60,821 bases of DNA, taken from a virus. The stretch spans positions 1 through 60,821 of the IMG/VR virus record IMGVR_UViG_3300025030_000111; one strand, written 5' to 3'. A model generated the notes under the pieces. The model was not told where the DNA came from. It ran no database searches and was given only the letters and a program-made list of their open reading frames with translations. Shown here piece by piece: positions 16,145 to 45,333 of this stretch (positions within the stretch are counted from its first letter, which is position 1; each line of letters starts with the position of its first letter). Position numbers and translations under genes: made by a program.

Positions 16145-16798
16145 ATGTACTTTAAACTATTAGGCAGGGATGGAAAGTCCTGTAATGGAGGGAACTTTCA
16201 ATACGATCTTCCCAAACGGAGGAAGGACGGAACCTGGAAACCGGGGGAGTGGACGCCAAAAATAGAAGTGATAGAACCATGTAAATCTGGTTGGCATGGC
16301 TGTGAATTGAAAGACGCCCTGACATGGGCAAACCACTCCATGTATCTCTTGGAGTACAAAGGAGAACTTATAGATCACGGAGATAAGTTTGTCTTTCAGC
16401 AGATCCGCCTGATCCGCTCTGTAGAAGAATGGAACCCTAAGAACCTGAGACTCTTCGCCGCCGATTGCGCTGAACGGGTTATTGCGATCTATGAAAAAGA
16501 ATACCCTGAAGATCAACGGCCCCGCTTAGCGATTCAAGCAGCCCAGAAGTTCGCCCATGGTGAAATTACCCAAGAAGAATTGAACGCTGCTGGGGATGCT
16601 GCTTGGGATGCTGCTTGGGATGCTGCTAGGACTGCTGCTGGGGCTGCTGCTTGGGATGCTGCTGGGGCTGCTGCTAGGACTGCTGCTGGGGCTGCTGCTT
16701 GGGATGCTGCTTGGGATGCTGCTGGGGATGCTGCTGGGGCTGCTGAGCAAGAATGGCAAATCTCCCGCCTCAAGTTTTATTTAAAGTTGAAGGATTAG
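16145..16798 (+). CDS. DUF7666-like protein with Ala-rich tetrapeptide repeats
   Basis: A 217-aa protein. The N-terminal ~115 residues carry the 'CKSGWHGCELKDALTWA...LYLLEYKGELI' pattern that I associate with the uncharacterised DUF7666 group. It is followed by RLFAADCAERV and a C-terminal stretch of about 13 tetrapeptides of the form [WGR]-[DTA]-A-A, predicted to be one long helix. These are encoded by a 12-bp DNA repeat. Related proteins often end in such A-rich repeats of variable number. Function unknown. Confidence 0.75.
   Translation: MYFKLLGRDGKSCNGGNFQYDLPKRRKDGTWKPGEWTPKIEVIEPCKSGWHGCELKDALTWANHSMYLLEYKGELIDHGDKFVFQQIRLIRSVEEWNPKNLRLFAADCAERVIAIYEKEYPEDQRPRLAIQAAQKFAHGEITQEELNAAGDAAWDAAWDAARTAAGAAAWDAAGAAARTAAGAAAWDAAWDAAGDAAGAAEQEWQISRLKFYLKLKD
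16587..16745 (+). repeat. 12-bp tandem repeat inside the coding region
   Basis: About 13 copies of a GCTGCTKGGRMT-type unit. The unit is in frame and adds four residues per copy, so copy number can change by slippage without breaking the gene. Confidence 0.85.
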
Positions 16799-16801
16799 AG
16801 A

Positions 16802-17971
16802 ATGTCAAATTTAATTGCTATAGAGAAAGAGGACAACATGACGACAAGCAGCCCAGGAGAATTAGAGAAACTCCAACTATTGGCAGTAGAAACCCACCTC
16901 AACTCCCAAGTCGTGGAACGGGAAGAGGAGATCCGAGGGCTACTTCTTTCTTTACTCGCCAAGCAACATGTCCTTCTCCTTGGCCCGCCAGGTACGGGAA
17001 AGAGCCTGACCGCAAATTTATTAACCCAATCGGTTACAGATTCTAACCTGTTTGAAATCCTCATGACCCGCTTTACCAAGCCCGAAGAGGTCTTTGGACC
17101 TCCTTCCCTACCCGATCTCAAGGCCGGAAAGTACGCTTTTATCAAGGAGGGGACGATTCGCGAATCGCAAATCGCGTTCCTCGATGAGATCTTCAAGGCC
17201 AACTCGGCCATTCTAAACTCGCTCTTGAAGATCGTCAATGAAAGGGTCTTCCACAACGGGAGTTGCGGGGCGGAGAAGGTGCCTCTGATGTCCCTGATCG
17301 GAGCAAGCAACGAGCTACCACAGGGGGAGGATTTGTCGGCCCTCTTTGACCGTTTTATGTGTAAGTATCTGGTCAAGCCGGTACAAGATCAGAACAATAT
17401 CAGGAGAATGCTCCATTCCACTCCTCAGGTCGGTCCGACCATATACCTGTCTTCTTTGGAGACGCTACAAAAGCAGACCAATCAGGTCAAGACGGATACC
17501 TATCTGGATCAGCATCTTCATCTTCTCCTAAAACTACGGGGGGAGGGATTCAATATCTCTGACCGAAAGGCTAGGGAATCTCTTTCCCTTCTGAAAGCGT
17601 CGGCAGTCCTGGCGGGACGAAATCATGTCATCTTGGAAGATGCTCGAATTCTCGCCCACGTCTACTGGCAGGAACCTGACCAAGTTAAGAAATTGAAGTC
17701 CTTGATCTGGGAGTTTATCAATCCGCATGATAAATATGCTCTAGAGCAGTACGACGCCGCAACTGAAATCTTCCAGAGGGCTACCAATCCGACAGATGAC
17801 GGCAAGGTCTCGGTCGAAGAGTCTTTCAACTCGATTAGGACAATCCAGATCGAGCTGAAACAGAGAATCAGTAGTCTAACCCCGGAACAGAATCGAAAAC
17901 TTGTAGAGGTTTCTGACAAGATTCAACTCTACCGGGAGGAGTTAGTCCAGTTTATGCTGGGGAGAAAATAG
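16802..17971 (+). CDS. MoxR-type AAA+ ATPase
   Basis: A 389-aa AAA+ protein. Walker A is GPPGTGKS at residues 61-68, Walker B is IAFLDEIFKAN, followed by NSLLKIVNERVFHNG (MoxR hallmark) and a sensor-1 GASNELP. A DRFMCKYLV segment with an arginine follows. MoxR/RavA ATPases work as chaperone-like motors with a von Willebrand A (VWA) partner, and such a partner is encoded at 19724-21178. ATG 16838, with AGAGG before it, is an alternative start. It opens a cluster ending in a terminator at 22808. Confidence 0.92.
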   Translation: MSNLIAIEKEDNMTTSSPGELEKLQLLAVETHLNSQVVEREEEIRGLLLSLLAKQHVLLLGPPGTGKSLTANLLTQSVTDSNLFEILMTRFTKPEEVFGPPSLPDLKAGKYAFIKEGTIRESQIAFLDEIFKANSAILNSLLKIVNERVFHNGSCGAEKVPLMSLIGASNELPQGEDLSALFDRFMCKYLVKPVQDQNNIRRMLHSTPQVGPTIYLSSLETLQKQTNQVKTDTYLDQHLHLLLKLRGEGFNISDRKARESLSLLKASAVLAGRNHVILEDARILAHVYWQEPDQVKKLKSLIWEFINPHDKYALEQYDAATEIFQRATNPTDDGKVSVEESFNSIRTIQIELKQRISSLTPEQNRKLVEVSDKIQLYREELVQFMLGRK

Positions 17972-19341: not shown

Positions 19342-19731
19342 ATGAGTAAAATAACCATTGAGAATGCAAGGATCAAATCTACAACACTAGGGGAAGCGGC
19401 AACTGACCGGGGCATGTTTAGCTACTGGCTCCATATCGAATGGGAGAGGAGCGGCTGTAGCTTTGGCGGTAAGGTACTGGACGAGAGACAATTCCCCGGA
19501 CAGGAGTGTAAAGACTACACCCGAATTGGTACAGCCTACGGGATGACCCACTTGATGAGGATTCTGGAAACGCTGGAAGTCCGGAAATGGGAGGATCTCC
19601 CCGGTACTTACCTACGCATCAAGTCGGAGGGACTGGGAGGAGGGATTACAGCTATTGGGCATATCATCAAAGATCAATGGTTTGATCCCAATGCTCTGAA
19701 ATTCTTGTTAAAGGAGAAGGGGGATGGATGA
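19342..19731 (+). CDS. Conserved phage protein of unknown function, 129 aa
   Basis: ATG 19342 behind GAAAGGAAAG. It is beta-rich, with YWLHIEWERSGCSFGGKVLD and LETLEVRKWEDLPGTYLRIKSEGLG. I recall similar proteins in many phages, where the function is also unknown. It overlaps the VWA gene by 8 bp, suggesting a functional link. Confidence 0.7.
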   Translation: MSKITIENARIKSTTLGEAATDRGMFSYWLHIEWERSGCSFGGKVLDERQFPGQECKDYTRIGTAYGMTHLMRILETLEVRKWEDLPGTYLRIKSEGLGGGITAIGHIIKDQWFDPNALKFLLKEKGDG

Positions 19732-21178
19732 TTGTGCAATCAAGCAACTCCAGTTCGACCAGCTTCAATTCAAGGAGATGACCGAAAAATCCCCGGCTCT
19801 CCAACAGAAAATAGATGCCAGCGATTATTCAAAGGCGTCAGAACTCTGTCGAGACTTATTTGCATCAATGTTCAAGTATACGCCTGAGATTAACCCCGAT
19901 GTCGCTCCCGACTATCTGGCCAATCAGAAGGTAATGAGAGAGTTGATGAATCTTAGAGAGTACGAAAATCTGCATGAGCAGACGAAAGGACAAGCAATTC
20001 TTTCTGCCTCCGCCACCCGTAAGTTCTGGGGGGAGGTAGAAGGAAAGTTGCCGGAGAGTGTTAAGGAACACGCCAGAACCACCGAAGAGATTCAAAAACG
20101 AATAAAAAACCTCGTTGAGCGTCAGAAGGCGTATGAGGAGCTGGTCAAAGACTACCCTGAATTACAGGAGGAGTTAGACAGACAGAAGGAGGCTCAAATT
20201 GAAGAAGAGGCGGCCTTGGCAGGAATCCCTGCGCCCTGGACTGATCCGGACGTTACTGACGGACTTAGACAGGCCATCCGAGGAGCACTTGAGGCGGCGG
20301 CACAAGATTCTCAACAACTACAGGACGCTATGGATGTCTTTGGCTGGGGGGACGGCCCCGGAAATGGAGGTGTGGTTGCAGAACGAGAGATCCAATTACT
20401 AGCATCTTCCTTACAACAAAGTAAGGATCTGCAACGACTGGTCGAGTTGGCCGGGAAGTTTCGACGGATCGCCTTAGCTAAAAGGAAACAGAAACTTAGA
20501 CATGAGCCGGATGAGATCGCCGGGATCGAGTTCGGTCAAGACCTGACCCGGATGATTCCCGCCGAGGCTCTCTACCTGGTCGATCCGGAACTGGAGGATC
20601 TCTTCTATAAGAAGTATCTCTCTAGTGAGCTGATGCAGTTAGAATTGGTCAGTAAACCCCCGGAAGGGAAGGGGCCGATCATTGTCTTCAGTGATGTCTC
20701 GGGCTCGATGCAGGGGATTCCTGATATCTGGAGTAAAGCGATCGGCCTAGCCATGCTGACCATTGCTCATAGAGAGGGACGAGATCTCTTTGTCGGTACC
20801 TTCGATACGTCGGTGTACCAGAGTTGGGAGTTTAAAAAAGGGAAGTCCAGAATTACAGACTTATTGAATTACGCCAATAGCTTTAGCGGAGGGGGCACTG
20901 CCTTTGCTCCTCCCTTGAGTAAGGCTCTTGTACAGATTCAAATGTCAGCTTTCAAAGAGGCCGATCTGATCTTTATCACGGATGGGGTTGCCCCCCTGAC
21001 CGATGACTTCCTAAAGAATTTTAACGCAGTGAGAAAGGAGAAAGCTTTTAATGTAATAACAGTACTGATCGGAACAAGCAGTTACAGAGCAAAAGTAGAG
21101 GCATTTAGCGATGAGGTAATCAAAATACAGAACCTCCTGGACGATAAAGTTGTTGAGGAAATTCTAAAGTTACATTAA
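19724..21178 (+). CDS. VWA-domain (CoxE-like) partner of the MoxR ATPase
   Basis: A 484-aa protein. The helical N-terminal ~300 residues precede a VWA domain with the metal site DVSGSM (Asp324), a downstream FSGGGTAFAPPL threonine loop and FITDGVAPLTDDF. Such proteins are the substrate-recognition partners of MoxR ATPases and usually lie next to them, as here. Complete MIDAS residues suggest a working metal-binding adhesion module. The target is unknown. It is in the same operon as the ATPase and the 288-aa protein. Confidence 0.9.
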   Translation: MDDCAIKQLQFDQLQFKEMTEKSPALQQKIDASDYSKASELCRDLFASMFKYTPEINPDVAPDYLANQKVMRELMNLREYENLHEQTKGQAILSASATRKFWGEVEGKLPESVKEHARTTEEIQKRIKNLVERQKAYEELVKDYPELQEELDRQKEAQIEEEAALAGIPAPWTDPDVTDGLRQAIRGALEAAAQDSQQLQDAMDVFGWGDGPGNGGVVAEREIQLLASSLQQSKDLQRLVELAGKFRRIALAKRKQKLRHEPDEIAGIEFGQDLTRMIPAEALYLVDPELEDLFYKKYLSSELMQLELVSKPPEGKGPIIVFSDVSGSMQGIPDIWSKAIGLAMLTIAHREGRDLFVGTFDTSVYQSWEFKKGKSRITDLLNYANSFSGGGTAFAPPLSKALVQIQMSAFKEADLIFITDGVAPLTDDFLKNFNAVRKEKAFNVITVLIGTSSYRAKVEAFSDEVIKIQNLLDDKVVEEILKLH

Positions 21179-26863: not shown

Positions 26864-27397
26864 TTGAAAGTGATTACATTGCGCCCTCTCAGACTGGCAG
26901 ATTGGGGAGGCAGACCTACTCTGACCAGATTTGGTGTGGATCAAAAAACTGACTGCCCTAAAGGCGCAACCTTTCCGGTCATTGGAGAATTGAAATACAA
27001 CTACATCATTGACTTGGGAGAGGGATACTCAGCCAAAGTCTCCAAACACGACGTCCTTATTTTACAAGGAGGAAGAGAGATGCATAGCAAAATTAATGGC
27101 CTCAGCTTCAGGACCAACATTCCCTGGGACCAAATCAAAGTTGGGGATAGCCTGATGCTGGTCCACGACCCCTGCGGTAAGACTTCCCAGATGGAACACA
27201 CGGACCCTTTTGCTCTCATGATTGTCCATGAAAAAACGAATTTCCACCTGGGATTTGTCCCAAAGGAGACCGCTAAACTTCTTTTGGATAATATCAAGGC
27301 TACCCTCTTCCAATGTCAGATCACAGAGATTACAGGAGGTTACGGAGAGAAGACAAATAAGGGCGTAAATATCAAGATCTGTTACGAATTAGAATAA
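26864..27397 (+). CDS. HIRAN-domain protein
   Basis: A 177-aa protein starting at TTG behind GAAAGGAG. Residues ~80-175 follow the HIRAN pattern: INGLSF...VGDSLMLVHDP......DPFALMIVHEKTNFHLGFVPKETAKLLLDNI...TGG...NKGVNIKI. HIRAN domains bind 3' ends of single-stranded DNA and are found in fork-remodelling helicases such as HLTF and Rad5, fused to a SNF2 motor. Here it is a separate gene 0.85 kb before a SNF2 helicase, so they may act together. The first 80 residues are unknown. Confidence 0.75.
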   Translation: MKVITLRPLRLADWGGRPTLTRFGVDQKTDCPKGATFPVIGELKYNYIIDLGEGYSAKVSKHDVLILQGGREMHSKINGLSFRTNIPWDQIKVGDSLMLVHDPCGKTSQMEHTDPFALMIVHEKTNFHLGFVPKETAKLLLDNIKATLFQCQITEITGGYGEKTNKGVNIKICYELE

Positions 27398-27401
27398 ATG
27401 A

Positions 27402-27430
27402 TTGACAGAAAATAGGAGACAAACTACTAT
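27402..27430 (+). promoter_or_regulatory. Sigma70-like promoter of the RHH-SNF2 unit
   Basis: Perfect TTGACA, a 17-bp spacer and TACTAT. Its start site would fall just before the repeats at 27447-27488. Confidence 0.75.
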
Positions 27431-27446
27431 AAAATTAGGCTCAAAC

Positions 27447-27488
27447 AGGAGCAAAATAAGAGCGAAAAACAGGAGCATTTTAGGAGCA
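27447..27488 (+). repeat. Four phased AGGAGCA-type repeats (operator-like)
   Basis: AGGAGCA at 27447, AAGAGCG at 27458, AGGAGCA at 27471 and AGGAGCA at 27482, spaced 11, 13 and 11 bp on the GAGC core and each followed by an A/T run. Ribbon-helix-helix proteins bind such phased short direct repeats, and the next gene encodes one. Confidence 0.6.
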
Positions 27489-27522
27489 TTTTATGGACTT
27501 GATTTTGAAAGGAGTCGAATAG

Positions 27523-28251
27523 ATGCCCAAACCACCAACAGTTAAGGTTGTATTAAGTGTACCTACCGTTCACGCTGAATGTGTCAGACGTGTAGCGGCA
27601 GAGGTTGGTCTCACCATGTCAGCTCTGTATCGGGTTATTCTCAAGGAGTATTTACAAAAGTACATACAGAACGGGAAAAATCTTAATTTAAATTTCAGTA
27701 AAGAAACCTTGACAGAACTGGAAAATCCCGCTACCCTTAATTTTTTTAATAAAAGAGAAAGAAGAAAAATTATAAATCGTCCTTCTATCGTCCCTCCTGT
27801 ATCTATCTATCCGACAGACAGAATCCCGAAAGACGAAGGAATGACGACCTCTCACTTTTCTCTCCCCCCGGGAGGAGAAGAGGCCACACTAAACGCTTTA
27901 ATATTTCAAAATTTAAAAACCTTTAAACTTATCCAAAAAAATAATACTCATCAATACCTTGCTAAACTCCTTGGAGATACTTTTGGAAAGATAAAAATAA
28001 TTCAAATATTGATTGATAAAGATTGGAATAGCCTGAATCAAATTATCTATAAAATAAATTCAAAAAAAGAAAAGAATCAGTTAATAGATAATGAGATTAG
28101 TTATTTCCTTAAGTCCATAGAATCAAGTAAAGTGGATAGAATTCCCTTTGATAACTTCAAACCGTTTTTAAAAAATTTCCTAAAAAATAAAAAATCAGAG
28201 GATTATTGGACAATTACCAATGGTTTTCCAACAGAGGCTGAACATGATTGA
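27523..28251 (+). CDS. Protein with N-terminal ribbon-helix-helix domain, 242 aa
   Basis: Residues ~6-48 (TVKVVLSVPTVHAECVRRVA...LTMSALYRVILKEYL) fit the RHH fold. The remaining ~190 residues are Lys/Asn-rich and unlike anything I recognise. It may control its own promoter through the repeats just upstream and could also have a replication or partition role. It overlaps the SNF2 gene by 8 bp. Its A/T-rich codons stand out from nearby genes. Confidence 0.75.
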   Translation: MPKPPTVKVVLSVPTVHAECVRRVAAEVGLTMSALYRVILKEYLQKYIQNGKNLNLNFSKETLTELENPATLNFFNKRERRKIINRPSIVPPVSIYPTDRIPKDEGMTTSHFSLPPGGEEATLNALIFQNLKTFKLIQKNNTHQYLAKLLGDTFGKIKIIQILIDKDWNSLNQIIYKINSKKEKNQLIDNEISYFLKSIESSKVDRIPFDNFKPFLKNFLKNKKSEDYWTITNGFPTEAEHD

Positions 28252-29989
28252 AATAAGTAAGCAGAGTAATCAAATAGGTCTTTCCATTAAGACCCAGGAA
28301 GATCGTATTTTTCAGAAAGCCATTCAGATCTGTAAAGAGATGAAGGGACGGTATGAACCAGAGAATCGTCAGTGGCTTTTCCCAACGTATCGTCTCCTGG
28401 AAATATTGGAGAAGCTAAGTCTGGTTGATCATCTGGAGTTGGACTATCCCCTAAGAAAAGAGATGGAAAGACAAATTTCCGGTCTTTCCCCTGAAGCAGA
28501 AGCTATTCTTCATGAGCTTTCCCCCGTATTGATGAAACATCAAATCTCAGGAGCTAAATTCCTTCTGCAAGGACACTCTCTCTTGTTGGATTCCCTGGGG
28601 GTCGGGAAAACCCGTGCCACCTTAGCTTCTCTGCTGGTTCGGCTGAAAACCCAACAAATATCCCGCTTTCTTATCCTCTGTCCCGCCTCAGTTATTTCCT
28701 CTTGGCAGAGTGAATACGAGATCTGCTCCCAACAAATTGGTCTGAAGGTGCCGCTAATTTTCATTGCTTCATCAAGTAAGATGACCTCGTACAAGGCCAA
28801 ATTAGAGGAGGAAAAGTCTTTTGGGTGCATTATGACCTCCGACCTATTTAAGAGGGCTCCTGAGAAGTGTCAGGCACTTCTCAACGAGTTTAAGCAGGTC
28901 AACGGAAACATCCATATTCTTGATTGGGTAATTATATTCGACGAAATTCACGCCCTGGCAAATCCAGCAAGTAATATTTCAAAGGCGATCCGACTTGTAA
29001 GTCCTACTTACAAGATCGGTCTAACGGCGACCCTCTTGCCTAAGAATGTCGAGAACGTTTGGAGTCCAGTTGATTGGGTCAGGCCGGATTATCTAGGCAA
29101 TTACTGGGCCTTCTACAGCCGTCATGTCGTCACCCAGGATCGGAAAATTAGAACACCGCAAGGCCCGAGAACAATCAAAGAGAAGATCGGCTATAAGAAC
29201 CTTGATCATCTCCGGAAGCAGATCCAGGAGATCTCTTTAAGAAGGGAAAGGCATGAGGTTCTAGATCTGCCGCCTCAGATTTTTATTACCCGGTACGTGA
29301 GCATGACCAAAGAACAGCAGAAGATCTATGAGGCAGTGAAACAACAGCTTTATGATGAGTTGAAAGGAATGAACGCGGATGAGATTTACAAAGCCATTGT
29401 TCTCTTTCCGATGGTTAAAGCGATACGGCTTCTGCAAGCGGCCAACGATCCCTCTCTGTTCGGAGAGGCAGGTTCATCTATCAAGCTGGAAGAGATGGAG
29501 AGGGTTCTCGAAGAATCTGAAGAACCAGCGATTATCTGGACAAATTGGCAAGGGCAGATGGATCGTCTTAAGGAGCATTTCCGAGATGCCGCTGTCTACA
29601 TAGATGGCCGTACCCCTCAGAATCAGAGAGCCTCGGCAGTGGCCAGGTTCCAAGCTGGTGAAGTAGACATCTTCTGCGGAAATCCCGCAGCAGCAGGTGA
29701 AGGGATCAATCTTCAACGCGCTACCTTAGCGATCTATCTGGACCGTTCTTATTCAGCCGTAGATCGGATTCAAAGCCTCGCCAGAAATTATCGTTATGGG
29801 AGTGTTAATAGAGTTACTGTGGTTGATTTGATAACTCGCGGCACCATTGATGAAATACCACTTCGCGTTATTAGTCAGAATTTTGAGACGATGGAAAAGG
29901 TAATAAGAGGAGGAGACATAGATAAGAAAAAACTTTACGAAGAGTTGATTCAGGCGGGAGTAGTTGAACTCCCCAAAGGAAAAGTGTAA
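28244..29989 (+). CDS. SNF2-family helicase with HARP-like N-terminus
   Basis: A 581-aa DNA-dependent ATPase. The first ~65 residues (FQKAIQICKEMKGRYEPENRQWLFPTYRLLEIL) resemble the HARP/SMARCAL1 substrate-recognition motif. Walker A is GVGKT (119-123), the Walker B box is DEIH (Asp233) and GLTATL is motif III. The C-terminal RecA lobe carries the DGRT...R..AVARFQ and AAAGEGINLQRA..A.YLD...Q..AR.YR motifs. Annealing helicases with HARP domains rewind or reverse replication forks. ATG 28244 is preferred as the coupled start. The HIRAN gene upstream strengthens a fork-repair role. Confidence 0.88.
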   Translation: MIEISKQSNQIGLSIKTQEDRIFQKAIQICKEMKGRYEPENRQWLFPTYRLLEILEKLSLVDHLELDYPLRKEMERQISGLSPEAEAILHELSPVLMKHQISGAKFLLQGHSLLLDSLGVGKTRATLASLLVRLKTQQISRFLILCPASVISSWQSEYEICSQQIGLKVPLIFIASSSKMTSYKAKLEEEKSFGCIMTSDLFKRAPEKCQALLNEFKQVNGNIHILDWVIIFDEIHALANPASNISKAIRLVSPTYKIGLTATLLPKNVENVWSPVDWVRPDYLGNYWAFYSRHVVTQDRKIRTPQGPRTIKEKIGYKNLDHLRKQIQEISLRRERHEVLDLPPQIFITRYVSMTKEQQKIYEAVKQQLYDELKGMNADEIYKAIVLFPMVKAIRLLQAANDPSLFGEAGSSIKLEEMERVLEESEEPAIIWTNWQGQMDRLKEHFRDAAVYIDGRTPQNQRASAVARFQAGEVDIFCGNPAAAGEGINLQRATLAIYLDRSYSAVDRIQSLARNYRYGSVNRVTVVDLITRGTIDEIPLRVISQNFETMEKVIRGGDIDKKKLYEELIQAGVVELPKGKV

Positions 29990-31690: not shown

Positions 31691-32548
31691 ATGAATGAAG
31701 CTGTACAGAATTATCGAGACAATTTAAGAAAGCAGGCAGAGGAGGCGGCGGCGAGGAAAGAGGCGGCTAAGCAGTTTAAAGAGCAGCAACAAAACCGGAA
31801 GATGATCGAGCGGCTGGCTATTGAGAAGGGCGGTTCGGTTCTTTTCCATCCGTTCAATGATTTCTATACGATTCCCCGGCTGACCGGACACAATGTGGTC
31901 AGGACTTCTAAAAAGGGGAATAGGCTCTTCCGCAAGGTCTTCTGTCCCGAGCAGTTTGGGCTGGCCTGTGGCCTCTGCGAGAAGAGGTTGGATTGGTCGA
32001 ACCTCAGCCCGTCGGAGCAGGCCGAGGCCAGGATCTCTAAAGTGATGGTCATCTTTGGACTGGATCAGGAGGCGATTGGAAAGACAACGACCTACACTAA
32101 TCTCAAAGGAGAGGAGGTTACGGTACCGGTCAGTCCGATCAAATATTTTCACCGGACCTCCGGAAAGGCAGACGCTAATTTCTTTGAGCTTGAGAATTTT
32201 GAAATTGATACAGAGGTTCCGCTCAGTAAGATGGAGCTAAAGATCTCCCGCCACGAGGGAGAGGATATCACAGAGTACACAGTTAGCTATCTACACAAGT
32301 CGGTGGGTAAAGAGCTGAAGATGCCGAAGGGTCTTTCTCCTGAGCAGGAGAAGCTGTTTAAAGAGATGACGACAGCGCAGAAGAAGGGCGATATGCTCTT
32401 CTTATTCATGAAGGCACTCCAGACCTTTGATCTGCCGGAGGAGTGCAGCGAGTATCCGGATGTGGCCAATCATGAGTTACTGGTAGGAATGTATGAGTCC
32501 TCAACCTCACAAGCGGAGGAAGTAGAGCCAGAAGAAGTGCCCTACTAA
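31691..32548 (+). CDS. Phage single-stranded DNA-binding protein
   Basis: A 285-aa protein with the layout of T4 gp32-like SSBs. It has a basic helical N-terminus, a central OB-like region with FCPEQFGLACGLCEKRLDW (Cys cluster where gp32 relatives hold zinc), and an acidic C-terminal tail (EEVEPEEVPY) for partner binding. It coats ssDNA at the fork and in recombination. It lies just before DNA polymerase and ends at a strong terminator, so it is expressed with the SNF2 unit or separately in high amounts. Confidence 0.8.
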   Translation: MNEAVQNYRDNLRKQAEEAAARKEAAKQFKEQQQNRKMIERLAIEKGGSVLFHPFNDFYTIPRLTGHNVVRTSKKGNRLFRKVFCPEQFGLACGLCEKRLDWSNLSPSEQAEARISKVMVIFGLDQEAIGKTTTYTNLKGEEVTVPVSPIKYFHRTSGKADANFFELENFEIDTEVPLSKMELKISRHEGEDITEYTVSYLHKSVGKELKMPKGLSPEQEKLFKEMTTAQKKGDMLFLFMKALQTFDLPEECSEYPDVANHELLVGMYESSTSQAEEVEPEEVPY

Positions 32549-32566: not shown

Positions 32567-32610
32567 GGGGAAGAGAATAGCCAATCCTCTGTTCTCTTCC
32601 CCCTTCAATT
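32567..32610 (+). terminator. Rho-independent terminator after the SSB gene
   Basis: GGGGAAGAGAA and TTCTCTTCCCC form an 11-bp stem followed by CTTCAATTTT. Confidence 0.85.
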
Positions 32611-33191: not shown

Positions 33192-35126
33192 ATGACAACT
33201 GTTTTAGATAAAAAGTATAGGCTCATAGAAGACACAGAAGAGGCGATGAGGATTCTTTCTGATCTTGCTCGGTTTCCTACAGTCGGACTCGACTTTGAGA
33301 CTGCTTTGAGGCCAGGATATTTGAAAGTATTTAAATATAATTGGGAGTGGGAGGGCACTGGCAAGAATCGACACGAGGAGAACTGGGCGACTGATATCAG
33401 AACAGCAGACATCCGACTAATGCAAATTGCCACTCCGGACGGCAGACAGTATGTCTTTGACATCTTTAAAATTCCCATTGGTAACTTTAAAGATTACTTA
33501 GAGTCTGGGGTGCAATTAATTGCCCACAATGCCAAGTTTGAAGCCTCATTTCTTCTAAAGTACGGAATCTCTCCGATAAATTGGGGAGATACGATGATTG
33601 CCCACCAGCTTATTACAGCGGGGCTCCCAGCCAAGCATGGCCTGGAGGAGGTTGTTTGGGAGGTTTTTCAAGTTAAATTAGACAAGACTGAGCAACGTTC
33701 AGATTGGTCTGGGGAGCTGAGAGAGTCCCAATATGATTATGCTGCTCAGGACACAACTTATCTTCTTCCTCTTTGGGATCTTTTTTATGGAGTCTGTCAA
33801 GCTGACGGATTGTTGGATGTTCTGGCCCTGGAGATGCGGACTCTTCCAGCAACAACGGCAATGGAGGCTAATGGGGTCTACGTCAATCTTCAGAGGACTG
33901 AGCTTCTTCGTCAAGCTTACGCGGAGGAGATGGCGAGCTATGCTGGTAAGGTTATGGAGATTGTTCGAGCGGCAAATCTTACGGTCAAAAATGAAAAGTT
34001 CCTAAACTCCTCTCAACAATTGATTCAAGCTTACACTGAATTAGGGCTGGATCTGGTTAAGTTGGAAAAGGGAGAATTTGATGAGGGTGGCAAGCCAAAG
34101 TATTCAACAGATGCCAAGTATCTTTCAACGATCAACCATCCCTTTACCAACAACCTGCTCAAGTATCGGGAGTTTAAGAAGTTGATCTCAACCTATCTGG
34201 ATAACTTTCCTCTGATGCGGCACCCTCTGACTGGGCGAATGCACTGTAATTGGATGCAGGCATTTACTGATACCGGACGTTTTTCATGCAGTGCCTTAAA
34301 TTTAATGAACATTCCCAAAGAGGGGGCAATGAGGGAACTTTTTGAGGCCCCGCCTGGATACCTACTTTGTCTTGCAGATTTTGAGCAAATAGAGGTTAAG
34401 CTCGCTGCGATCCTTAGTTGTGATCCAGTTATGTCAGAAGTATTGAAACAGCCTGGAGCTGATCTTCATGCTGAGACGGCGATGAAACTGTTGGGGGCAC
34501 ATCCGGATGATCCTGACTGGAAAGAGAGCCGGGCCATTGGGAAGAACAGCGTATTCTCGGGGATGTACGGAAGTGGGGCCGAGGCACTGGCTGAAAAATC
34601 CAAGGGGAGGTTTACCTTGGCCCAGGCCCAGGAATTTCTCACAACTTTCTTCAATCACTATAAAGGATTCTCTCAGTATCTGAGCAGTGTTCGACACGGC
34701 GCTGTTTTTGGTAAGAAAGAGAGCCGGTCGATCTTGGGTAGGAGGCGCAGTTACCTACCCAAGGAGTGGGAAATTGACTATATCACGAGCCGTAATAAGG
34801 GGAAAGTCAAGAAGATATTTTTAACAGCAACGGAACGAGAGGCCGGTAATCATCCCTTTCAAAGTAGCGCCGCCGATTTTGTCAAATCTGCCATGTGCGA
34901 AGCCTATTATGTTCACAACTTAGAGGTTGTTATAAACTGTCATGATGAACTTCTCTGCTACACCAGGGCGGAAAACTCAGAGGAGGATAGAGCAAAGTTG
35001 GAGATGGCCATGGTTGAGGGAGCTAATAAAGTAATTTCCAAGGCCGTTAAACGAGGTTACAAGATAGACTCCTCTGTTCCTATTATGGCCGAGGCTAAAG
35101 TTGTTCAGTCTTGGCGGGATAAATAG
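33192..35126 (+). CDS. polA: Family A DNA polymerase with 3'-5' exonuclease
   Basis: A 644-aa replicative polymerase without a 5' nuclease domain. Exo I is GLDFET (Asp34, Glu36), Exo II LIAHNAKFEASF, and Exo III YAAQDTTYL. Polymerase motif A is LCLADFEQIEVKLAA (Lys where Arg is usual), motif B GKNSVFSGMYG, and motif C INCHDELL. All catalytic acids are present. It synthesises the phage genome with the DnaB helicase, primase and SSB found in this window. TAAGGAG lies 14 bp before the ATG. Confidence 0.95.
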   Translation: MTTVLDKKYRLIEDTEEAMRILSDLARFPTVGLDFETALRPGYLKVFKYNWEWEGTGKNRHEENWATDIRTADIRLMQIATPDGRQYVFDIFKIPIGNFKDYLESGVQLIAHNAKFEASFLLKYGISPINWGDTMIAHQLITAGLPAKHGLEEVVWEVFQVKLDKTEQRSDWSGELRESQYDYAAQDTTYLLPLWDLFYGVCQADGLLDVLALEMRTLPATTAMEANGVYVNLQRTELLRQAYAEEMASYAGKVMEIVRAANLTVKNEKFLNSSQQLIQAYTELGLDLVKLEKGEFDEGGKPKYSTDAKYLSTINHPFTNNLLKYREFKKLISTYLDNFPLMRHPLTGRMHCNWMQAFTDTGRFSCSALNLMNIPKEGAMRELFEAPPGYLLCLADFEQIEVKLAAILSCDPVMSEVLKQPGADLHAETAMKLLGAHPDDPDWKESRAIGKNSVFSGMYGSGAEALAEKSKGRFTLAQAQEFLTTFFNHYKGFSQYLSSVRHGAVFGKKESRSILGRRRSYLPKEWEIDYITSRNKGKVKKIFLTATEREAGNHPFQSSAADFVKSAMCEAYYVHNLEVVINCHDELLCYTRAENSEEDRAKLEMAMVEGANKVISKAVKRGYKIDSSVPIMAEAKVVQSWRDK

Positions 35127-35504: not shown

Positions 35505-35741
35505 GTGATTGACGATCCGAGTTTTCGTCTTCCGGTCTTTTACCCTATTGAAAATAAGATATTTCAATATCAGAAAGTTCTGGATGGTTGGGCGTTCTCC
35601 AGCCAGAGAAAGGTGGCGGAAGAGCTGGTCAAAGCTCTGGAGGTGGCGCTGTACTGGAAAAGGCGGTTTGAACAAGCGGAGGAGTTGTATGGAGGGTTAA
35701 AGCTTAAGGAGTTAGAAAAAGTGTCAACTACTCCGCCTTGA
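35505..35741 (+). CDS. 78-aa protein, 3' end possibly altered by the IscB insertion
   Basis: GTG 35505 behind GAAGGAG. Helical and charged (RKVAEELVKALEVALYWKRR). Its last codons run into the first hairpin of the IscB RNA, so the original 3' end was probably replaced by element sequence. It also lies where the IscB guide would be encoded. Confidence 0.6.
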   Translation: MIDDPSFRLPVFYPIENKIFQYQKVLDGWAFSSQRKVAEELVKALEVALYWKRRFEQAEELYGGLKLKELEKVSTTPP

Positions 35742-35984
35742 AAGGCGGAGCTTGAGGAAAACTTCAGGCTCGGGTTGACCAGGAAAAGCGGTACCCAATC
35801 CGCTACGTTGTAGATAGGTTAAAGACCGACGTTGGGATGCTTCCTCAGTTCCAACCTCTCGAAGCTCCGGTTGCAGACACGCAACAGGGTAAGCACGAAA
35901 CGGATCGGAGCCTAATGCCGGTCTACAACATTTCCGAGGGGAGAGGTTCGTAAGAACCCGTTACAAGGCCCGTAAGGGCAATTA
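35720..35984 (+). ncRNA. HEARO / omega RNA of IscB
   Basis: The ~260 bp before iscB fold as expected for the HEARO class, now known as the IscB omega RNA. Stems seen: CTCCGCC/GGCGGAG (35731-35750), AGCGG/CCGCT (35787-35804), GTTGG/CCAAC (35831-35855), GCTCCG/CGGAGC (35864-35911) enclosing GTTGC/GCAAC, and a long-range GTTGTAGA/TCTACAAC pairing (35807 with 35922). Two hairpins with GTAA tetraloops follow: GGTTC/GAACC (35945-35958) and GCCC/GGGC (35968-35979). The guide should be the ~16-20 nt before 35731. Confidence 0.88.
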
Positions 35985-35999
35985 AAAGGAGGATGGCCC

Positions 36000-37385
36000 A
36001 TGGCCGTCTGTGTTTTGGATCGTCACAGCAAGGCTTTGATGCCCTGCAGCGAAAAACGAGCCCGATTGCTGCTGGAACGGGGTCGGGCAAGGGTGCATCG
36101 GCTGATGCCGTTTGTGATTCGGCTGATAGACCGTGAAGTAGAGGAATGCGAATTTCAACCGCTGCGCCTGAAGTGTGATCCTGGCAGCCGAACCACGGGT
36201 ATGGCGCTGGTGCGTATTCAGGAGGATGGAGGAACAGTCGTACTTCACTTGTTCGAGCTCAAGCATCGGGGCCGCGCTATCTCAGAAGCCCTGACAGGCC
36301 GACGGGCCAAGCGTCGGCGTCGGCGCAATGCCAATCTGCGTTACCGGGCTCCCCGTTTCTTGAATCGCCGCAGACCGCCTGGTTGGCTGGCACCCAGCCT
36401 GCAACACCGGGTGGACACGACGATGGTCTGGGTTCATCGGCTGCAACAGTGGGTACTCCTCACGGGAATCAGTATAGAGCTGGTGCGTTTCGATACCCAG
36501 GCCCTGGATAACCCGGCTATCGAAGGAGCGGAGTATCAGCAAGGGACGCTGCAAGGTTACGAAGTGCGGGAATACCTCTTGGAGAAATGGGGCCGGAAGT
36601 GCGCTTACTGTGATGGGGCAGGGATGCCGCTGCAAATTGAGCATATCCATCCCAAGAGCCAAGGGGGGTCCCACCGCATCAGCAATCTCACTCTGGCTTG
36701 TGCTGGCTGTAACCTCAACAAAGGCCCTCAGGATATCCGTTTGTTTCTGGCTCCCCATCCCCAGCGATTGGCCCGTATCCTGGCCCAGGCCAAAGCCCCC
36801 TTGCAGGATGCCGCAGCGGTCAACAGTACCCGCTGGGCTCTGTTCAAGGCACTCAAGGGCACGGGCCTGCCAGTGGAAACCGCCTCCGGGGGACGAACCA
36901 AGTGGAACCGCTCCCGCTTCGGGATTCCCAAGACCCATGCCCTGGATGCGGTGTGTGTCGGCTCCGTAGCCAAGGTGAGCCTCTGGCAGCGCCCCACCTT
37001 GGCTATCAAAGCCACAGGCCGGGGAGCCTATCAGCGGACCCGCCTGAGCGGCCATGGATTTCCCCGTGGCTATCTGATGGGTCAGAAACAAGTGCAGGGG
37101 TTCCAGACCGGGGATCGCGTCAGAGCCATTGTCCTTAAAGGCCAAAGGGCCGGAACTTACCTCGGTCGCGTTGCTGTTCGCCGTAGCGGCAGTTTCAACA
37201 TCCAGACTGATAGCGGGGTGGTGCAGGGAATCAGTTACAAATACTGTCAATTGCTCCAGCGCAACGATGGCTATGGGTATGGGCAACACCACGATTTCAA
37301 GAAAGGAGAAGCGGGAAGAGGGCAGGCTGCGCCCGATGCGCTATCCCTCCCCGGCATGAATGCCGAGGTTTCCCGCGCAATCTGA
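36000..37385 (+). CDS. iscB: IscB, RNA-guided DNA endonuclease (Cas9 ancestor)
   Basis: A 461-aa IscB with all parts. It has an N-terminal PLMP-type region (VCVLDRHSKALMPC), RuvC-I Asp60 (CDPGSRTTG), an Arg-rich bridge helix (RRAKRRRRRNANLRYRAPRF) and RuvC-II Glu160 (IELVRF). The HNH domain has CAYC, EHIHPKSQGG (His215) and LACAGCNLNKG. RuvC-III is THALDAV (His313, Asp316). The C-terminal target-interacting domain contains the G-rich segment GNDGYGYGQHHDF. Both nuclease centres look intact. It uses the RNA encoded just upstream. AAAGGAGG lies 7 bp before the ATG. Confidence 0.95.
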   Translation: MAVCVLDRHSKALMPCSEKRARLLLERGRARVHRLMPFVIRLIDREVEECEFQPLRLKCDPGSRTTGMALVRIQEDGGTVVLHLFELKHRGRAISEALTGRRAKRRRRRNANLRYRAPRFLNRRRPPGWLAPSLQHRVDTTMVWVHRLQQWVLLTGISIELVRFDTQALDNPAIEGAEYQQGTLQGYEVREYLLEKWGRKCAYCDGAGMPLQIEHIHPKSQGGSHRISNLTLACAGCNLNKGPQDIRLFLAPHPQRLARILAQAKAPLQDAAAVNSTRWALFKALKGTGLPVETASGGRTKWNRSRFGIPKTHALDAVCVGSVAKVSLWQRPTLAIKATGRGAYQRTRLSGHGFPRGYLMGQKQVQGFQTGDRVRAIVLKGQRAGTYLGRVAVRRSGSFNIQTDSGVVQGISYKYCQLLQRNDGYGYGQHHDFKKGEAGRGQAAPDALSLPGMNAEVSRAI

Positions 37386-37936
37386 TGAGGGAGATTCAAC
37401 TGGTTGGTAGAAAATACCAATATTTTTCTGTCGGAGGTAAACAGAAAAAGAAATTAGTGGGTCAGGAAACTGCGGTTGTCAAAGTAGACGATGAGGATGT
37501 CGCTGGGCTGAAGATGTGGGAGTGGAAATTCGCCCCCAGAAAGAGTGGCGGAGGCTATGCTTATCGAGATGTCTATGACGCATCAGGTAGGCGGATTCGC
37601 AAGTTGATGCACCGGGAGATTATGAAGGCCCCTCCGCACCTTTTGGTTGATCACATTGATGGAGATGGGCTGAACAATCAAAAGTCTAATCTCCGCCTGG
37701 TTACTCCTACGCAGAATCAACAAAATCAGACAACGGCGAGAAGAGACAACAAGTCCGGTGTTAAAGGAGTGAGCTGGGACAAGTTTAGAAACCGTTGGCG
37801 GGTTTCGATTACAGTAAACGGAATGAATAAAACTCTCCTCTATACTGAAGATCTTGAGCTGGCCAAAGAAAAATATGACGCGGCGGCGAAGTTGTATTTT
37901 GGGGAGTACGCCAGAACGAACGAGGAGGCGAACTGA
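37385..37936 (+). CDS. HNH-AP2 homing-type endonuclease, 183 aa
   Basis: The HNH core is LMHREIMKAPPHLLVDHIDGDGLNNQKSNLRLVTPTQNQQN (about residues 78-115), with DHIDGDxxNN and NLRxxT. It is followed by an AP2-like DNA-binding unit (KSGVKGVSWDKFRNRWRVSI...). Such free-standing genes are homing endonucleases in phages. It begins inside the iscB stop (TGATG), so two nuclease genes sit back to back between polA and an RNA ligase. Confidence 0.9.
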   Translation: MREIQLVGRKYQYFSVGGKQKKKLVGQETAVVKVDDEDVAGLKMWEWKFAPRKSGGGYAYRDVYDASGRRIRKLMHREIMKAPPHLLVDHIDGDGLNNQKSNLRLVTPTQNQQNQTTARRDNKSGVKGVSWDKFRNRWRVSITVNGMNKTLLYTEDLELAKEKYDAAAKLYFGEYARTNEEAN

Positions 37937-38121: not shown

Positions 38122-39129
38122 ATGGCTAACAATTGTGCAACTATTCAGAGAGTGGATGCTGTAAATCCCATTCCTGGAGCGGATCGAATTGAGGTTCTTT
38201 CGGTAATGGGGTGGAGTACGGTATCTGGTAAGGGACAGTATAAAGTAGGAGATTTAGTAGTTTTTGTTCAGCCGGATTCCGTGCTCCCTGAGACGCCAGA
38301 ATTTGAGGAGTACAGGCGTTTCGCGCCAAAACGCGTGAGAATCTGTCAATTTCGTGGTCAGATTAGTCAGGGGTTGGTTCTCCCGTTTTCAATATTGGGG
38401 CCTTTGGGAACTGAAGAGTGCCTTATTGGAGATGATGTCTCGGAGTATTTAGGAATTACTCACTATGAGAAGCAAATCCCAACTGAGCTGGCCGGAGTAG
38501 TTAAGGGAGGTCTGCCCAAGGGCGTTCATAAAACAGATGAGGAGAGCGCCCAGAATGTTCCTGGCTTTTTTGAGCGGCATAAGGGAAAGAATATCTATAT
38601 CGCGGAAAAAGCGGACGGGTCGTCCGCGACTTTTTATTATATTCATGAAGAATTTGGCTGCTGTGGGCGCAATTGGGAGTACGAGGAATCCGAGACCAAT
38701 GCCTATTGGAGAGTCGCCAGGGCGCTAGATCTAGAGACCAAGTTAATTGAGCTGGGAAAAGATATAATCCTCCAAGGTGAGTTGATTGGGCCAGGGATTC
38801 AAGGCAATAAGTACGGGCTGAAAGAGCTTAAGTTCTTATTGTTCAATGTCTGCGATCCTCAGACAGACCTAAATTACGATCTCCCGAATATGTTGAGCAC
38901 CGCCCTTCTGTTGGGTATTGAAACAGTTCCGGTTCTGGAGATTAGTACTTTTGATTATTCTCTTCAGGAGCTGGAGGAGATGTCCAATCGGAAATCTTTC
39001 CTCAATCCCAGTGTGCTGGCTGAAGGGATCGTTTTACGGACGTTGGATGATGAACGAGATCCAGAGACTGGGAAAGCCTCAATCAAGATCGTAAGCTCCA
39101 AGTATTTGCTGGCTAATGAGGACGCTTGA
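38122..39129 (+). CDS. RNA ligase, Rnl5 (DraRnl) type
   Basis: A 335-aa nucleotidyltransferase ligase. An N-terminal OB-like domain (IQRVDAVNPIPGADRIEVLSV..) precedes the adenylation domain, the order found in the Deinococcus Rnl type. Motif I is EKADGSS (Lys163), motif III LQGELIGPGIQG, motif IV EGIVLR, and motif V IKIVSSKYLL. It seals RNA ends, probably as repair of cut tRNA. A second, unrelated RNA ligase is encoded at 54833. AGAGGAGAAAG site. Confidence 0.88.
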   Translation: MANNCATIQRVDAVNPIPGADRIEVLSVMGWSTVSGKGQYKVGDLVVFVQPDSVLPETPEFEEYRRFAPKRVRICQFRGQISQGLVLPFSILGPLGTEECLIGDDVSEYLGITHYEKQIPTELAGVVKGGLPKGVHKTDEESAQNVPGFFERHKGKNIYIAEKADGSSATFYYIHEEFGCCGRNWEYEESETNAYWRVARALDLETKLIELGKDIILQGELIGPGIQGNKYGLKELKFLLFNVCDPQTDLNYDLPNMLSTALLLGIETVPVLEISTFDYSLQELEEMSNRKSFLNPSVLAEGIVLRTLDDERDPETGKASIKIVSSKYLLANEDA

Positions 39130-39839: not shown

Positions 39840-40156
39840 GCCTCGTTGAAATTTTAAAAAATTGGTGGGTTACGCCCTCTAGGCCCCAATCTCCCAAGCC
39901 GCTGCCGGGACCAGCTTTCCTGATGGAGGTGACTCTCGTGACGGGCGAGAGGCGGACTTTTCGGTTTGAAGACCATATCTCTTCTGAGAAGTTGTTTAGT
40001 GACTGTAAGTGGCGGGTTGTGCCCGCCGTGGTCAGGGCTTTCAATGTTATGGAAGGAAAGAATCACTTAAAGTGGGATGAGGTTGGATCGATTAGGATTC
40101 CTAGACATCAGATTGTTTCGTATCGAATTTATCAAGAAGGGAAATCGCATGAATGA
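39836..40156 (+). CDS. Unknown 106-aa protein
   Basis: GTG start overlapping the previous stop. An N-terminal helix, Pro-rich linker, and strands with LVTGERRTFRFEDHIS. No family recognised. It overlaps recA by 8 bp. Confidence 0.6.
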   Translation: MSLVEILKNWWVTPSRPQSPKPLPGPAFLMEVTLVTGERRTFRFEDHISSEKLFSDCKWRVVPAVVRAFNVMEGKNHLKWDEVGSIRIPRHQIVSYRIYQEGKSHE

Positions 40157-41234
40157 TTATCAACCAGAGAATCGTCCCAAACCTTCGACCGATACTCAGG
40201 CGCTGTTGGCTGAGTTGCGAAAGCAGCATAAAAGTTTGAGTATTTTGACGACTGCGGGACAGTTAGACCTTTCCCTGGAACCGTATAGTTCGGGTATTCT
40301 GTCTGTTGATTGTGTTCTGGGAGGAGGAATCTATCCACGTAAAATCTATGAGTTCTACGGTCCGGAAGCAAGCGGTAAGAGTCTGATATTATATAACATA
40401 TTATCTTCTGTGCAAAAAAGAGCAAACGGAAATTTGGTGGCTATTTACGATTCGGAGCGGTCTTCCGATGCCAAGGAATGGCTAGAGTTTAATGGGGTGG
40501 ATATTGATAATCTAATCTACATTGTCGGAACGGCAGAGACCTCTTTGGATGCTCTTTTGACCTGTACTAAAGACCCAAGATGCGGAATTATCGCGATTGA
40601 CTCGATTGCTAGCATGGCTACAGCCCAAGAGATGGAGCATGAAATGGCTACCCGAGAGGTGGCGACAATTGCGGGCCTCCTTCCTAAGTTTTTCAAGAAG
40701 TTTGGTAATTATACGACCAATACTTCCATGATCTTGATCAATCAAGTCAGAGAGGCGATCGGAACCTACACGGCCTATGGAGAGGCATTGCGGACTCCCG
40801 GCGGCAGGTCGGTTCGGCACTGGGCCTCCTCTCTTTTGGAGGTGAGGGGGGTGAGGAAAGAGCTGACTGAGGGGAAGGGGATTGAACAGACAATCAAGGG
40901 GGTGGATGTCTATGTCAAAGCTGTCAAGAATCGACTGGGCGTGGAGGGCAGTCGCAGTTATTTCCGTTTTATTTTTGATCAGGGTATTGATGAGCCCGAG
41001 ATGGTCCTCCGGTTGGCAAAGGTATCGGGGCTATTGAGACAGGGAGGAGCCTGGGTCAAGGGGACGATTATGGGAGAGGACGTGACGTTCCAAGGATTGG
41101 AAGGATTCAGAACTCTCTTAAAGAGCAGACCGGAGTTTGATCCCTGGTTGCGGAGCCGGATCTTGGAGAGTTATAAGAAGCATACATTTGTTACGAAAGA
41201 GGAGGGGGAGCTACCAGATGTTGTTGAAAAGTAG
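40149..41234 (+). CDS. recA: RecA/UvsX-type recombinase
   Basis: A 361-aa RecA. Walker A is GPEASGKS (71-78), Walker B is CGIIAIDSIASM, the L2 region follows ILINQVREAIGTYTAYGEALRTPGG, and the core ends with a RecA-like C-terminal helix set. ATG 40149 behind GAAGGGAAA. It forms filaments on ssDNA for recombination and repair and works with the SSB, RuvC and SNF2 proteins in this window. It lacks the full length of cellular RecA at the N-terminus, as is typical of phage forms. Confidence 0.92.
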   Translation: MNDYQPENRPKPSTDTQALLAELRKQHKSLSILTTAGQLDLSLEPYSSGILSVDCVLGGGIYPRKIYEFYGPEASGKSLILYNILSSVQKRANGNLVAIYDSERSSDAKEWLEFNGVDIDNLIYIVGTAETSLDALLTCTKDPRCGIIAIDSIASMATAQEMEHEMATREVATIAGLLPKFFKKFGNYTTNTSMILINQVREAIGTYTAYGEALRTPGGRSVRHWASSLLEVRGVRKELTEGKGIEQTIKGVDVYVKAVKNRLGVEGSRSYFRFIFDQGIDEPEMVLRLAKVSGLLRQGGAWVKGTIMGEDVTFQGLEGFRTLLKSRPEFDPWLRSRILESYKKHTFVTKEEGELPDVVEK

Positions 41235-44055: not shown

Positions 44056-44118
44056 CTAAAACTTGATTACAAATCTAGTGGTTTTTCTGACATTTATTTG
44101 AGTTAATAGGGGTTGTCT

Positions 44119-45333
44119 ATGTTGTATGCGGAGAGTCAAATCCTCTTATCTCATCTGATAAAAGATGTAGAGGTTCCTGACCATCTCCTGTCAGAAGAGG
44201 CTATGACCGCCCGCAAGTGGATACTCTCTTATAAAAATCAATATGGAAAGAAGCCCTCTCCTGAAAGTTTCTCTGAAAAGTTTAATGTCCCTTTGCGGGA
44301 TCTTGACCCTTATGATGAAATCTTAGAAACCTTGGTAGATTTCAAGGCGGCGGCGGCGATTGAAGATATTGAGGGAATTCTAGGGGATACACGAAATCCT
44401 CGCAAAGTCATGGAAGCACTCCTGGAGAAGGCCAGGGAGTTTATGGATCAGGTGGGGGCTTCCCAAGATAAGGTATCTGCTGTCCGGGACGGGATGGATG
44501 AATTTTTTAATGATTACCGGCATCAACGTGCTCAGGGGATCGTTCCGCACGTAGCTCGCTTTGGGTTCCCTACTCTGGATGATGAGACAAATGGTTTTGA
44601 ACGGGGGGATGTGATTGTTCTCTGCGCAAGGCTCAAGGCAGGGAAGAGCACCTGGGCTAGGCATGTGGCGATCAACAACCTCAAAGATAACAAGAGAACT
44701 GTTTATTTCGCTCTGGAAGAGAATGTAGAGATGACATTAAAACTTTTCTATTCTTACTTCGCTCAGATGCCCTCTCGTGGGTTTCTCCGTAACAATAACT
44801 CGCAGCAGGAACTCTCTGATTTGATTCAGAAGACTCAAGCTATTAAAGGGCTAACAGGAGACATCCTCGTCCCTCACGTCAATGTCTCCTCGACGTTGGA
44901 TATTCTTCGTTACCTGGATCAGCACAATCCGGATCTCTTTATTCTAGATCAGCTTTCGATTTTTGCGGGCGATTTGGATTGGAAGGTTGTAACGAAGCAA
45001 ATTTATAAGTTGAAGAATGATGTCTGTATGAAGACGGGGATTCCCGCCTTGGTCTTGACTCAAGATAACCGGAAGGGAATTACGGCTTATGCTGATGGAA
45101 TTGAGGCGGCGGCGGACAAAGTGTTGAGGCTTTCTAAAGATCCAGAATCCCCAACTGAATTGAAGACAATTACGGTTGAACGGAATCGACGCGGAGCTTT
45201 TGGAGGGGTTATCCCCTTAAGATGGGAGCCTCAGAATAGTATCTGTGAAGAACTTGGTACGGCCCCCGTGAATGTGTGGAAACCAAATACATCTGGGGGA
45301 ACCTCAGTGAAACCGTTAAATTGGGAGGAGTAA
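44119..45333 (+). CDS. dnaB: DnaB-type replicative helicase
   Basis: A 404-aa DnaB-like protein. The N-terminal ~130 residues are helical. The RecA-like motor has Walker A ARLKAGKST, Glu in VYFALEEN (H1a), Walker B DLFILDQLSIF, the ALVLTQDNRKG loop and R-finger region KTITVERNRRG. ATG 44119 after AGGGG. It unwinds the fork ahead of the family A polymerase with the primase at 47332. Confidence 0.92.
   Translation: MLYAESQILLSHLIKDVEVPDHLLSEEAMTARKWILSYKNQYGKKPSPESFSEKFNVPLRDLDPYDEILETLVDFKAAAAIEDIEGILGDTRNPRKVMEALLEKAREFMDQVGASQDKVSAVRDGMDEFFNDYRHQRAQGIVPHVARFGFPTLDDETNGFERGDVIVLCARLKAGKSTWARHVAINNLKDNKRTVYFALEENVEMTLKLFYSYFAQMPSRGFLRNNNSQQELSDLIQKTQAIKGLTGDILVPHVNVSSTLDILRYLDQHNPDLFILDQLSIFAGDLDWKVVTKQIYKLKNDVCMKTGIPALVLTQDNRKGITAYADGIEAAADKVLRLSKDPESPTELKTITVERNRRGAFGGVIPLRWEPQNSICEELGTAPVNVWKPNTSGGTSVKPLNWEE

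Follow-up and report, generated by a model that had tools for sequence, protein, structure and literature searches.

A separately encoded HIRAN protein near a HARP-SNF2 motor in a phage replication region: a candidate fork-remodeling pair

Introduction

In HLTF, the HIRAN domain brings the enzyme to forks and determines which way its motor runs, and two residues, Y72 and Y93, border the DNA pocket and stack on DNA (PMC4666394). For the annealing-helicase activity of SMARCAL1, a segment reaching from one HARP domain across the motor is enough, and other SNF2 motors gain this activity when HARP domains are fused to them (PMC4035279), and HARP-type domains are specific to fork and lesion remodelers (PMC4035279, PMC4666394). 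A 2022 review states that no SMARCAL1 homolog is known in prokaryotes (PMC9368896). Among phages, T4 UvsW has an N-terminal HARP domain (PMC4666394), and standalone HIRAN proteins have been annotated in DLP4 and AXL1 as possible sensors of stalled forks (PMC6469090, PMC9206674). Here, we analyzed one complete record of a virus collection (IMG/VR record IMGVR_UViG_3300025030_000111; 60,821 bases, a phage from environmental DNA, referred to as the window), which encodes a HIRAN protein and, close to it on the same strand, an SNF2 motor with a HARP-type N-terminal domain.

A preliminary description had proposed that the two proteins make up a viral system for restarting forks, a proposal suggested by the functions of such domains elsewhere. 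Its eukaryote-like novelty is weakened by the two phage precedents, the HARP-type domain of T4 UvsW (PMC4666394) and the annotated standalone HIRAN proteins (PMC6469090, PMC9206674). On balance, we consider it somewhat probable that the phage encodes a fork annealing or regression motor together with a HIRAN protein that serves as its DNA-binding helper partner, and the motor half of this reading is more likely than the partnership half.

Results

The motor carries a HARP-type domain

The motor matches PF00176 (SNF2_N, E = 7.5e-27) and PF00271 (Helicase_C, E = 6.5e-13), the PF00176 score being far above those of other superfamily 2 (SF2) models. Helicase motifs I, II, III and VI are intact (GVGKT, DEIH, TAT and QSLARNYRYG), and the motor named in the preliminary description is thereby borne out. 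The start at 28244 was preferred over the one at 28220 because it overlaps the stop of the preceding open reading frame (ORF) by 8 nt. Proteins similar to the motor are contained in 1,105 phage records; identity to its relatives is only 25–27%, and a seven-sequence SNF2 alignment was too diverse for scanning. The best matches of the motor part in the PDB are Sulfolobus SNF2/Rad54-like and CHD1L structures. An identity as a defense helicase was rejected, as ZorD and DrmD are matched in NCBIfam far under their cut-offs, and such matches are common to all SNF2 proteins.

Immediately N-terminal to the SNF2 motor sits the HARP-type domain. PF07443 (HARP) gave no match to the window motor at E ≤ 10 and none in hmmscan. 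Relatives (L020, L021, L022, L023, L026 and L180) do pass its cut-off, and in them the match likewise falls directly ahead of the motor. The window HARP region was aligned with ten relatives (alignment A10, in which L171, L173 and L190 are included), and 6 of the 11 members match PF07443. For scoring the window, a hidden Markov model (HMM) was built from the ten relatives with the window left out. The motor N-terminus scored 20.6 bits, where the top score among 5,000 shuffles was 10.5; the HARP part, taken by itself, scored 24.5 bits, where an equal number of shuffles reached at most 7.7. Over 712 window ORFs, the motor ranks best with this HMM. An earlier four-sequence HMM gave the window 7.6 bits, with 2 of 2,000 shuffles equally good, and the larger sets separate clearly. 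Furthermore, the A10 profile retrieved one significant structure from the PDB, the HARP domain of SMARCAL1 (4o66, E = 8e-6), and the AlphaFold2 model of residues 1–60 is confident (predicted local distance difference test, pLDDT, ~90), with the order strand-strand-helix-strand-strand-helix. These results confirm that the motor carries an N-terminal HARP-type domain, as first read from its sequence, although PF07443 itself misses the window protein.

A group of marine-type SNF2 motors (L192, L193, L195, L196 and L207) was also observed to have a WxxxxGLW-like N-terminus with weak HARP HMM scores (0.0006–0.08), and is possibly a further diverged HARP branch.

The upstream gene encodes a diverged HIRAN protein

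The HIRAN gene has a TTG start preceded by the ribosome-binding-like sequence AAAGGAG. Its product scores 18.6 bits (E = 0.0017) against PF08797, under the curated cut-off of 24.7, so that by Pfam alone the HIRAN call is undecided. Protein gp253 of phage G is a clear HIRAN (4.7e-12) that matches the HLTF HIRAN domain, and with gp253 as a lead 80 viral HIRAN loci were obtained. Against an HMM of 27 dereplicated viral members, the window again left out, the window protein scored 20.6 bits, and the best of 5,000 shuffles 5.6. With HMMs of Pfam-passing viral HIRANs in general, it scored 18.7–20.6 bits and 5,000 shuffles reached at most 6.6. When the 27-member HMM was run over 6,846 ORFs from the window and the other SNF2 loci, only the window HIRAN and its copies scored. 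PF08797 matches each of the 18 sequences in alignment A5. When the window protein was combined with 17 viral HIRANs into one profile, a PDB search returned the HLTF HIRAN structures (3e-15). The AlphaFold model is confident in the core only; Foldseek nevertheless places HLTF HIRAN, lp_0118 or Rad5 at all of ranks 1–10, with a probability of 1.00 for the first nine and E-values of 0.0075 or weaker. Thus the protein is a diverged HIRAN protein, and profile, shuffle control, PDB profile match and fold make the assignment secure. Searches with the single HIRAN sequence (tblastn in phages, phmmer in the PDB) yielded nothing useful; these failures, like that of the Pfam HARP model on the window, are limits of sensitivity that were overcome by adding relatives.

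A view in which the two genes are decayed or unrelated, lie together by chance without a joint function, or had their domains misassigned could point to Pfam, which scores the copies in this phage under the cut-off or not at all. The shuffle controls, the profile matches to solved HIRAN and HARP structures and the fold matches speak against this view, as do the intact motifs, the near-identical copies of the HIRAN/SNF2 region with open reading frames in three further viral contigs, and an independent operon in phage L191 (described below). As to domain identity, this explanation is already disfavored, and as a whole we regard it as highly improbable; both domains of the preliminary description were supported by profile searches, and the fold searches were clear for HIRAN and weak for HARP. 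Scans of viral contigs with single proteins returned solely near-identical contigs of the same phage, and a host/prophage search with the HIRAN alignment found 0 relatives in 84,980 genomes.

HIRAN and SNF2 genes co-occur recurrently but not obligately

Co-occurrence was sampled from both sides; as many of the records are fragments, absences should be read with caution. The first SNF2-side sample comprised 49 records outside the window genome (50 handles, including two near-identical contigs, one of them counted as phage G), and HIRAN was detected by Pfam in phage G only. Two of 30 further records were positive, namely L191 and the 252-kb contig behind L173. From the HIRAN side, SNF2 was found in 6 of 9 tested named phages. 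A single phage type, Bradleyvirinae (PaMx74, Mallos, Donnerlittchen and relatives), accounts for nearly all co-occurrences on this side, and in it the two genes lie ~7–9 kb apart in the same replication region. The distance is ~255 kb in phage G and ~200 kb in the 252-kb contig. The L173 motor N-terminus aligns with the HARP family, and this contig therefore holds a HIRAN and a HARP-like motor far apart.

The key case is L191 (IMGVR_UViG_3300008255_000016), an unrelated and independent phage whose motor is only 23% alike to that of the window. Directly after a DNA polymerase gene, L191 has a HIRAN gene, a 60-aa ORF and an SNF2 gene on one strand with overlapping stop and start codons, and the stretches SFRT and DPFA are common to its HIRAN and that of the window. 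The HIRAN-SNF2 link is thus recurrent, not obligate. Co-occurrence, which the preliminary description named as a check, does extend to other phages, with the genes adjacent in L191 and apart in the Bradleyvirinae-type phages, phage G and the 252-kb contig, and the link is loose. Separately, a contig from a neighboring-number dataset (L118:2395-10315, IMGVR 3300025018) has HIRAN and SNF2 genes ~6 kb apart on one strand.

Several observations weigh against a motor-and-helper pair. HIRAN was detected by Pfam in 3 of 79 other SNF2-bearing records overall, and SNF2 in 4 of the 27 dereplicated viral HIRAN records, some of the remaining 23 being fragments. The HARP domain is not recognizable in the L191 motor, so that, beyond this phage and the contigs nearly identical to it, the triple of HIRAN, ORF and HARP-SNF2 was not seen. 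A promoter-like site at 27402–27430, between the HIRAN gene and the next ORF, could uncouple the two. In the window HIRAN, F82 stands at the place of HLTF Y72 and T113 at that of Y93, and there is a loop insertion, so that 3'-end binding may be altered. Finally, the Foldseek search with the HARP model gave weak matches: archaeal XPB led through its N-terminal half (probability 0.96), 4o66 came at rank 21 (probability 0.33), and MutS was also listed. Mason's 2014 paper on the SMARCAL1 HARP domain reportedly describes the HARP fold as common to the damage-recognition domains of XPB and MutS and to T4 UvsW; on that description, the mixture of XPB, MutS and 4o66 would be expected for a HARP domain.

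The low co-occurrence raises the possibility, which we find rather doubtful, that the motor is a fork or recombination remodeler and that the HIRAN protein acts independently, e.g., as a binder of DNA ends or lesions with the polymerase, RecA or a nuclease, the two being close only through a shared replication cluster. This could explain why the majority of HIRANs are standalone, with no SNF2 in 23 of 27 viral HIRAN records, and it agrees with the wide separations in the Bradleyvirinae-type phages, phage G and the 252-kb contig and with the unrelated ORF that separates the genes in the window. The overlapping codons of the L191 operon favor co-expression instead, and the stretches common to the L191 and window HIRANs likewise count against independence.

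Gene neighborhood

The genes around the HIRAN protein and the motor lie in a replication region and share the plus strand (Table 1). The two genes were described as neighbors, which holds for their closeness and shared strand and fails for immediate adjacency: they are next but one, with the 242-aa ORF in between. Polymerase A, on this strand as well, follows the motor at a distance of 3.2 kb, in line with the proposed context, and RecA, at 10 kb, is not a near neighbor. The putative single-stranded-DNA-binding protein (SSB) was rejected as an established neighbor because it has 0 matches in Pfam, PHROG, NCBIfam and the PDB, and the SWIM protein is unsupported, its PF04434 match being sub-threshold. 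A strong terminator-like stem/hairpin (32567–32602) follows the gene of the putative SSB.

Table 1 Positions of the HIRAN and HARP-SNF2 genes and of neighboring features in the window
Feature	Position	Strand	Remarks
HIRAN protein, 177 aa	26864-27397	+	HIRAN domain at residues ~75-177; fold of the first ~75 residues unrecognized
Middle ORF, 242 aa	27523-28251	+	Ribbon-helix-helix-like N-terminus; between HIRAN and SNF2
HARP-SNF2 motor, 581 aa from preferred start	28244-29989	+	ORF opens at 28220
HARP-type domain, motor residues ~1-60	28244-28423	+	Profile, shuffle control, PDB profile match, model
SWIM-like candidate, small protein with CxC...CxH residues	30844-31212	+	PF04434 E 0.41, sub-threshold
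285-aa protein	31691-32548	+	Putative SSB of the preliminary description; downstream of motor
Family A DNA polymerase with 3'-5' exonuclease	33192-35126	+	PF00476 6.5e-64, PF01612 5.5e-19
RecA	40077-41234	+	10 kb away
DnaB-like helicase	44113-45333	+	Replication region
Primase-like Toprim protein	47332-48228	+	Replication region

The middle ORF, whose ATG is preceded by GAAAGGAG, has no family match in Pfam, PHROGs or NCBIfam. Its first 56 aa match Sulfolobus ORF56 weakly (E = 0.21), the sole PDB support for a ribbon-helix-helix (RHH) fold, and its N-terminus may be read as an RHH DNA-binding domain, a weak assignment.

This ORF, not the HIRAN gene, is the gene directly coupled to the motor, and roles in remodeling protein-DNA complexes are general among SNF2 motors. 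Both points would suit a motor that works with the RHH-like protein of the overlapping gene on protein-DNA complexes, stripping RecA or host proteins, or acting in transcription in the manner of HepA/RapA. We consider such a role quite unlikely, as HARP-type domains are a specific feature of fork and lesion remodelers (PMC4035279, PMC4666394), the surroundings are replication genes, and the RHH assignment is itself weak.

Other genes in the window

Several further genes were observed. A HEARO RNA (RF02033, 116 bits, E = 2.9e-23) lies 50 bp upstream of an IscB-like RRXRR-HNH protein (36000–37385), and the unit at 35723–37385 is apparently a complete IscB-omegaRNA unit inside the phage replication region. 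Since a TnpB-like protein is encoded at 2826–4043 (Cas12f1-like_TNB, 5.5e-22), the phage carries both IscB-like and TnpB-like nuclease genes. HNH-AP2 endonuclease-like genes are found at 37385–37936, beginning at the last base of the IscB-like ORF, and at 58381–59334; both are probable homing endonucleases. Two different RNA ligase genes (38122–39129 and 54788–55936), of the types PF09414 with a PHA02142 OB-fold and T4 Rnl1-like PF09511, suggest repair of RNA cut by host defenses. A MoxR-type AAA ATPase (16802–17971; bpMoxR, 2.1e-52) and a VWA-domain protein (19724–21178) are 1.8 kb apart and resemble MoxR-VWA pairs. At 16145–16798, a protein combines an Imm5-like immunity domain (5.7e-11) with WDAA/GDAA repeats that are rich in alanine and lie toward its end; it also matches DUF7666.

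Discussion

What we observed directly is the identity of both domains, a set of intact helicase motifs, a setting among replication genes and, in one independent phage, a coupled HIRAN-ORF-SNF2 operon. Building on these, we infer by analogy a translocase and fork activity of the motor, DNA binding by the window HIRAN and contact between the two proteins. The motor would be an ATP-driven double-stranded-DNA translocase whose N-terminal HARP-type domain recognizes fork-like junctions, and it would anneal or regress stalled phage replication forks, like T4 UvsW or the minimal HARP-plus-SNF2 core of SMARCAL1. The HIRAN protein, encoded on the motor's strand two genes ahead of it, would bind single-stranded DNA or 3' ends at stalled forks and probably helps to load or orient the motor, as a separate-protein counterpart of the HIRAN domain inside HLTF and Rad5. 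It is a probable separate DNA-binding partner of the motor, and the phage may own a kit for rescuing stalled forks.

A more speculative version, which we hold to be more doubtful still than an independently acting HIRAN, is a two-protein remodeler. Its HIRAN subunit would read the 3' end of the nascent strand, and its HARP-SNF2 motor would read the junction and translocate, so that one viral complex would combine the recognition domains that eukaryotes divide between HLTF and SMARCAL1; L191-type phages would then have a related HARP-less version.

If the pairing is real, the two modules by which human fork-reversal enzymes recognize forks both exist in phages, as separable, small proteins that are easy to purify, and the separate contributions of HIRAN and HARP could be studied in a minimal system. 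Judged by predicted architecture, branching with SMARCAL1 in an SNF2 tree being a matter apart, phage HARP-SNF2 proteins qualify the statement on prokaryotic SMARCAL1 homologs (PMC9368896); they were found in many unrelated phage contigs, which bears on the origin of the HIRAN and HARP domains. For phages, a known strategy would be extended, T4 UvsW being already a phage fork-regression motor with a HARP domain.

Comparison with known systems

The UvsW motor belongs to SF2 but is not an SNF2 motor, and no HIRAN partner of UvsW is known. The motor of the window phage is SNF2; UvsW, compared here by description, resembles it as a phage DNA motor with an N-terminal HARP-type domain that is used in fork regression (PMC4666394). 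With the minimal SMARCAL1 core, the window motor shares a HARP-type domain directly before the SNF2 motor and the profile match to PDB 4o66. It differs in having 581 aa and one HARP domain, with no RPA-binding extension seen.

HLTF and Rad5 have the HIRAN fold and family in common with the window HIRAN, which differs from them as a separate protein with an unrecognized N-terminal part and partly kept pocket residues (F82, T113 and the loop insertion). HLTF and Rad5 also combine HIRAN with RING and SNF2 in one chain, an architecture absent here: HIRAN has an ORF of its own, and the Pfam scan turned up no RING. The Pamexvirus/Bradleyvirinae phages (PaMx74, DLP4, AXL1) and phage G with its gp253 likewise have a phage HIRAN, an SNF2-type helicase in the same genome and a replication module. 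In these phages, however, HIRAN is not beside the helicase, the helicase matches begin after the HARP region, and the HIRANs are ~95 aa long with good Pfam matches, unlike the window HIRAN. The L191 operon is alike in placing HIRAN, one ORF and SNF2 on a single strand beside a DNA polymerase gene, and differs in its motor without a recognizable HARP domain and its middle ORF of 60 aa, which is not RHH-like.

The nearest known system is therefore T4 UvsW by function, the minimal SMARCAL1 core by architecture and, for HIRAN, the standalone phage HIRANs. The parts are of known kinds; what is new is the split HIRAN plus HARP-SNF2 arrangement.

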